64,000 nucleotides of DNA from contig SSBO01000012.1 of NCBI GenBank assembly GCA_005281725.1, positions 7,786,743-7,850,742 of the forward strand, read 5' to 3'. The notes under the pieces were generated by a model. That model was given only the letters and a program-made list of their open reading frames with translations. It was not told the DNA's origin and did not search any database. The stretch is from Wuchereria bancrofti. Its lineage: Eukaryota > Nematoda > Chromadorea > Rhabditida > Onchocercidae. Below are positions 56,309 through 57,402 of this stretch, piece after piece. Positions within the stretch are counted from its first letter, which is position 1; each line of letters begins with the position of its first letter. The translations under genes and the position numbers were made by a program.

Positions 56309-57402
56309 GTTTTGCTGGCAATAGGACGTGATGCTATGACAGATGATCTTGGTCTGGATATAGTCCGTGTAAACCGTGCAAAGTCTGGTAAAATAATTGG
56401 AAGAAGAGAGCAAAGTGTTAGTTGTCCTTATATTTATGCCATTGGTGATGTGCTACATGGTTCTCCGGAGCTTACACCTGTTGCAATACAAGGAGGTAAA
56501 GTTTTAATGCGACGTCTTTTCACTGGCAATTCTGAGCTTACCGAATATGACAAAATACCGACGACAGTATTTACACCGTTGGAATATGGTTCTTGCGGAT
56601 TATCGGAGTATGCTGCTATCCAAAAGTAATTTTTCGCAGGTTCAACTTTATGTGTGTATGGGTCGGNNACATAATTAACTGTAATTTCGAGTTATGAATT
56701 TGCGATCACTATAACATGGTCCTGTTTTACGAATTCCTGAAAGTTCTTACTTTGGATTCAATGGATTCCTAAGAAGCATTTTATATTACTGGTTGTGGAA
56801 GAGTTTTCTCTGCTTCAATCAAATTTTTTATAAACTAGTGTGTGTGCACTTCGAATTTCTTAGATATGGAAAAGAAAATATCAACGTGTATCATAATGTA
56901 TTCATTCCTCTTGAGTACGCCGTGACGGAACGAAAAGAAAAAACACACTGTTATTGTAAACTTATCTGCCTGAAGAATGAACAAGTAATTTACTCTTTGT
57001 TGTAGTTTGATTTTAAAATTGGGAAGTACAGTTCCTCAGTTTAATATGTGTTTTAACTGACATGATTTCATTTTGCTAAATTCCAGGACTTGATTCTTGG
57101 TTTTCACATCCTCACACCAAATGCAGGTGAAATAACACAAGGCTTTGCAATAGCTTTGAAATTTGATGCGAAAAAAGCCAATTTTGATCGATTAATCGGT
57201 ATTCATCCGACTGCTGCCGAAATATGTTTCTATATCACACATTCTATACGCATGCCTAACATGACTTGCAGAATCATTCATTAAAGATATCGTATTTAAC
57301 GGAATTTAGAACTTTTCCTAATTTAAATTTCAGGATTTTAAGATACTAACGTTGGTTAAGGAAGATAGGCAAACACTAAAGGCTACAGGGTGCTGAGGTT
57401 AA
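56309..57402 (+). CDS. trxr-1: thioredoxin reductase, C-terminal exons with in-frame TGA (selenocysteine), 5' part missing
   Basis: Exons: 56309-56625, 56864-56984, 57087-57225 and 57334-57402. The first two joints are in phase. Seen in order: VLLAIGRDAMTDDLGL, YIYAIGDVLHGSPELTPVAIQGG (FAD-binding GD motif), TTVFTPLEYGSCGLSE, KYGKENINVYHNVF, GFHILTPNAGEITQGFAIAL and GIHPTAAEI (catalytic His region). The last exon reads Lys-Ala-Thr-Gly-Cys-TGA-Gly-stop, the Gly-Cys-Sec-Gly redox tail of animal thioredoxin reductase, with TGA at 57394-57396. The enzyme uses NADPH to reduce thioredoxin. Odd: with the only GT donor (57226) the last exon is one base out of phase. Reading through instead gives a tail ending MTCRIIH without the redox pair. 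The first two-thirds of the protein are absent, two N lie at 56667-56668, and BEL/Pao sequence starts about 40 bases past the stop. It may be a decayed or misassembled copy. Confidence 0.85.

Follow-up and report, generated by a model that had tools for sequence, protein, structure and literature searches.

The DNA analysed here is a window of 64,000 bases (C12:7786743-7850742) from a Wuchereria bancrofti genome of 86.5 Mb in 108 contigs. Within it lies a segment that carries the selenocysteine (Sec) tail of a thioredoxin reductase (TrxR). When window positions 55800-57700 were compared with the genome, at least 33 matches were returned, at least 31 of them outside the block that contains the tail. 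A second copy of this block is located on the same contig, 602,901 bases further on, with 97% identity. The two copies align without gaps over 1254 bases, and 35 alignment columns differ, including two in which the base is N. The positions of the block and its parts are given in Table 1.

Table 1. Parts of the TrxR gene copy in the window (window positions)
Feature	Position	Strand	Basis or remark
Whole partial TrxR gene duplicate	56249..57502	+	Ungapped alignment to C12:8445892-8447145
953-base tract showing no called difference relative to the full gene (2 bases are N)	56261..57213	+	Alignment
Exon 8 copy	56309..56625	+	Aligned to C12:8445952-8446268; Pfam Pyr_redox_2 match
Exon 9 copy	56864..56984	+	Aligned to C12:8446507-8446627
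Exon 10 copy, GT donor missing at 57222-57223	57087..57221	+	Alignment; Pfam Pyr_redox_dim match
Diverged tract, 31/289 positions differ from the full gene	57214..57502	+	Alignment
Exon 11 copy with Gly-Cys-TGA-Gly-TAA tail	57334..57402	+	Alignment and motif scan
3' untranslated region remnant, 17/100 positions differ	57403..57502	+	Ends 16 bases before the position of the full gene's candidate SECIS

The window copy corresponds to exons 8-11, the final four of 11 that we placed in the full gene, and the reading frames of exons 8-10 are open. Two Pfam domains are recognized: Pyr_redox_2 at 56306-56608 (32 bits, cut-off 26.1) and Pyr_redox_dim at 57084-57221 (C12:7843826-7843963). Introns are retained throughout the block, which runs from what is numbered here as intron 7 to just short of the SECIS candidate described below, and the duplicate thus arose at the level of DNA rather than from an mRNA. 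A functional TrxR gene would encode an FAD domain with a CVNVGC redox motif and an NADPH domain upstream, but tblastn with the exon 1-7 protein gave no match anywhere in the 64-kb window at E values up to 1. The FAD-binding part and most of the NADPH-binding part are therefore missing from the window copy.

The complete TrxR gene is found at C12:8443796-8447045, approximately 603 kb from the window copy. All introns between its 11 exons are of the GT-AG type, and the total exon length is divisible by 3, giving 521 codons including Sec and stop; this placement covers the interval just stated. The predicted product (520 residues counting Sec) resembles the B. malayi enzyme (PDB 7P0X, 7PUT, and 7PVJ; PMC8914392), which has the same GCUG end and whose last part is what the window copy represents. 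Residues are the same at 497/520 positions of chain 7p0x, or 95.6% with the Sec column scored as a difference, and the 23 non-matching columns include one gap and this Sec position. Among the matches listed, B. pahangi shares 96% identity, Loa loa 92%, and Dirofilaria immitis 91%, and the full gene thus appears nearest to Brugia among the sequences compared. B. malayi TrxR is described as a selenoprotein with a GCUG motif, three crystal structures, and a counterpart in Onchocerca volvulus, and auranofin is described as an inhibitor of the filarial TrxR enzymes (PMC8914392).

An earlier, sequence-only reading of this DNA had anticipated that automatic annotation would stop at the TGA or skip the exon. 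The best 8 of the 120 public relatives listed (P0001-P0008) have ATGC as their final residues, immediately ahead of the Sec position, so annotation does cut off the tail in these entries. The tail letters of the window copy itself occur in 0 of the 120 listed homologues (4555 were found). We also considered whether the copy keeps an older tail residue than the full gene does, and this idea was dropped because the position varies among filarial proteins.

The Sec-tail segment is 69 bases long, is directly preceded by TTTCAG, and encodes D F K I L T L V K E D R Q T L K A T G C (TGA) G TAA, with the Gly-Cys-Sec(TGA)-Gly-stop end at 57388-57402. Direct reading thus confirmed the letters on which the earlier reading relied, namely the TTTCAG acceptor and Lys-Ala-Thr-Gly-Cys-(TGA)-Gly-TAA. 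This segment is not a chance occurrence, because GGNTGYTGAGGNTAA is present only once in the 64,000-base window and in 0 of 100 dinucleotide shuffles, and because its ungapped alignment to the final exon of the full-length TrxR gene has the same base at 62/69 positions. The same alignment bears out its assignment to an animal TrxR selenoprotein, and a short separate exon for the Sec tail is likewise the arrangement in the full gene. The 7 differences change five residues, and none falls within the final 29 bases, a stretch too short to be taken as a sign of selection.

How the tail could be reached by splicing is more problematic. In the full gene, exon 10 ends in a phase-0 GT donor, and this donor is absent at the same place in the window copy. 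None of the five GT sites between 57088 and 57299 joins the acceptor at 57334 in frame, since all are in phase 1 and phase 0 is needed. The exon at 57087-57225 that had been proposed to precede the tail fails in the same way: its 139 bases end in phase 1, and the tail would be left unread. Left unspliced, the exon 10 copy reads through to a TAA ending at 57284, and acceptors upstream of 57334 meet a stop in the tail frame, the nearest being at 57319.

Other routes into the tail can be drawn. Among 18 GT-AG pairs of compatible phase, 8 lead to the TGA with no intervening stop, always through an AG located within the Sec exon (at 57365 or 57389). With a GC donor, 35 of 48 pairs arrive at the TGA without a stop. 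Such splices are possible but weak, because GC donors are rare and the inner AGs lack a stretch resembling TTTCAG. The frame from exon 9 would also be preserved if exon 10 were skipped, at the cost of most of the interface domain.

Readings in which the locus is expressed were also considered. The copy may be transcribed and either spliced without the Sec exon or continued beyond exon 10 as far as the TAA that ends at 57284, yielding an interface-domain fragment without Sec. The open frames of exons 8-10 and the read-through end at 57284 are consistent with this, but no upstream exon or start was identified, and we regard it as very unlikely. Alternatively, the window could hold a second functional TrxR selenoprotein gene, either with upstream exons and a SECIS that have diverged too far to be seen or with splicing to an AG inside the Sec exon. 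The intact tail and exon frames, and the in-frame pairs with inner AGs or GC donors, could be read this way. However, exons 1-7 have no homology in the window, no GT donor joins the acceptor at 57334 in frame, and the SECIS candidate lies outside the copied block; we judge this reading highly improbable.

The SECIS candidate in question lies at 8447162-8447207, downstream of the full gene. It was scored with a custom scorer that uses SECIS features, was devised after the candidate had been seen, and requires a single SECIS shape. The element is laid out as GTGA, 12 bases, AAA, a small inner stem, and TGAT, and its main helix has 8 arm pairs (-7.0 kcal/mol). When 1000 first-order Markov samples were drawn from the 955-base flank of the full gene, 11 scored equally well, and 184,867 background bases on the given strand contained one place with an equal score, at window position 40681. 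Two more such places are on the minus strand of the window, giving 3 equally good matches elsewhere in the window when both strands are counted. Because of the way the scorer was devised, we treat the element as a candidate, not as proof of a SECIS.

The homology between the two copies stops at 57502 (8447145 in the full gene), 16 bases short of the candidate, and this finding does not depend on the scorer. From 57403 to 64000, no element scoring as well as the full gene's candidate was found downstream of the copy, where the only candidates reach -3.4 and -0.7 kcal/mol. The lack of a downstream SECIS, named in the sequence-only reading as one of two points that together would tell against it, thus holds at the level of prediction. 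Rfam returned no matches at gathering cut-offs in the window or in loci L009 and L010; at a loose threshold, the roughly 800 bases that follow the two tails yielded 3 and 4 matches, every one under its gathering score and none of them a SECIS. Rfam recognizes no SECIS even at the full gene and thus provides no positive control, and the absence of the element from the copy rests on the loss of homology together with the custom scorer. A looser SECIS-like pattern had been tried and was set aside, since it occurs at 4 places in the 300 bases past the full gene and at 14 in the 2000 bases past the copy, too many to discriminate.

A hairpin that folds well is present right after the stop in both copies, at window 57406-57437 and at about C12:8447046-8447085 in the full gene. 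In the window it starts 10 bases past the Sec TGA, within the untranslated region that differs as listed in Table 1. This hairpin was rejected as a SECIS because it lacks the SECIS core. In the live gene it might be a stem like those involved in Sec redefinition.

The differences between the two copies are distributed very unevenly along the block. Over the 953 positions of the middle tract there is no called difference (2 positions are N), whereas 31 of 289 positions differ in the adjoining 3' tract. Differences are present at both ends of the block, with 2 of 12 positions differing at 56249-56260. A single recent duplication does not easily explain identical and diverged tracts side by side, and we infer instead that gene conversion by the full gene recently overwrote the middle tract, or that this tract is an assembly error. 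The diverged 3' part would then reflect more of the true age of the duplicate.

In the second of these cases, reads from the full gene would have filled or joined a gap, and the true locus would hold less sequence or other sequence. A tract of 953 difference-free bases next to one that is 11% diverged is what such an error could produce, and the bases NN at 56667-56668 fall inside the identical tract. On the other hand, there are just two runs of N in the whole window, the NN and a single N at 52362, which are its sole unread bases. The 31 differences in 289 positions are also no mere copying error, so 57214-57502, at least, has the look of a genuine second locus. We consider an artefact here possible but rather unlikely; it would concern the middle tract without contradicting the pseudogene interpretation given next. 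Conversion could also be cast in a different role, in which a neighbouring promoter drives expression of an interface-domain protein that lacks Sec and ends at 57284, and ongoing conversion prevents the exons from diverging from their counterparts in the full TrxR gene. A fragment kept alive in this manner is, in our estimation, highly improbable.

On the basis of these comparisons, the window fragment is very probably a partial duplicate of the TrxR selenoprotein gene of this same worm and non-functional, in other words an unprocessed pseudogene that has been truncated. This interpretation follows from the second, complete copy, the missing match for exons 1-7, the lack of a GT donor in frame with the acceptor at 57334, and the position of the SECIS candidate outside the block. 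A block of approximately 1.25 kb of the TrxR gene, from intron 7 to shortly before the SECIS candidate, was duplicated as DNA. Unlike B. malayi TrxR, the resulting copy is missing exons 1-7, the GT donor into the Sec exon, and a counterpart of the full gene's SECIS candidate, and it would make no selenoprotein. Its TGA would be a fossil or would act as a plain stop, and the worm's selenoprotein TrxR would come from the full gene. Judged by sequence, the earlier view of the tail as part of a live TrxR gene is thus mistaken.

As in other truncated duplicated pseudogenes, a complete relative is present in the same genome, introns are kept, the copy is truncated at both ends, and disabling lesions, among them a lost splice signal, are found. 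Unlike such pseudogenes, the window copy has a long difference-free tract beside a diverged one, and it is this feature that suggests conversion or assembly error. The unchanged final 29 bases of the tail, the open frames of exons 8-10, and the in-frame alternative splices may be counted against a pseudogene. Among the matches listed for the literature on nematode and filarial selenoproteins, TrxR, SECIS, and pseudogenes, we found no title on a fragment of this kind. The case is a warning that even a flawless Sec tail preceded by a good acceptor may be a relic; here, scanning for the motif would overcount the selenoprotein genes by one. The fragment also points to the worm's complete TrxR gene, and primers, read mapping, and gene models need to take account of how nearly identical the two copies are.

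The genome also carries components for the use of Sec. A tRNA-Sec is located at C12:15271050-15271135 (74.1 bits, gathering cut-off 47; 12 other matches fall below gathering), where ARAGORN calls tRNA-SeC with anticodon tca. SepSecS matches in two pieces at C12:14236511-14238131 (354.2 and 50.2 bits). Of the three components singled out in the earlier reading, tRNA-Sec is accordingly found, and the other two gave fragmentary results. For selD (TIGR00476), four pieces in C12:7468346-7469529 are all below the cut-off, and SPS2 is probably present on this basis, which falls short of proof; the AIRS_C profile (PF02769) had no match in the genome. For selB (TIGR00475; EFsec), none of 19 pieces is above the cut-off, and these pieces are not distinguished from other GTPases. 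With tRNA-Sec and SepSecS present and the other pieces below cut-off, the genome very likely keeps the use of Sec. Such use is reported for the TrxR enzymes of B. malayi and O. volvulus (PMC8914392).

Several other features were observed in the window. A dispersed repeat begins just past the copy, at 57522-57689, with at least 8 further places in the genome at 71-75% identity and others that are partial. One of its frames contains a WWKGP motif, which we take to be of the kind found in BEL/Pao retrotransposons; no Pfam match above cut-off was obtained for the pieces of this repeat that were tested. Eight open frames located after the copy gave a single Pfam match, below cut-off (Castor1_N, 17.8 bits). 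On the minus strand, 40628-46493 holds a series of open frames with membrane-like segments, perhaps exons of a patched-like transporter; Pfam gave no match above cut-off for the three pieces of it that were tested. Lastly, the same translated stretch is present as an inverted repeat at 51909-52025 (plus strand) and 52885-53001 (minus strand), approximately 0.9 kb apart, and parts of this stretch are also seen close to the full TrxR gene, around C12:8448835-8448890.
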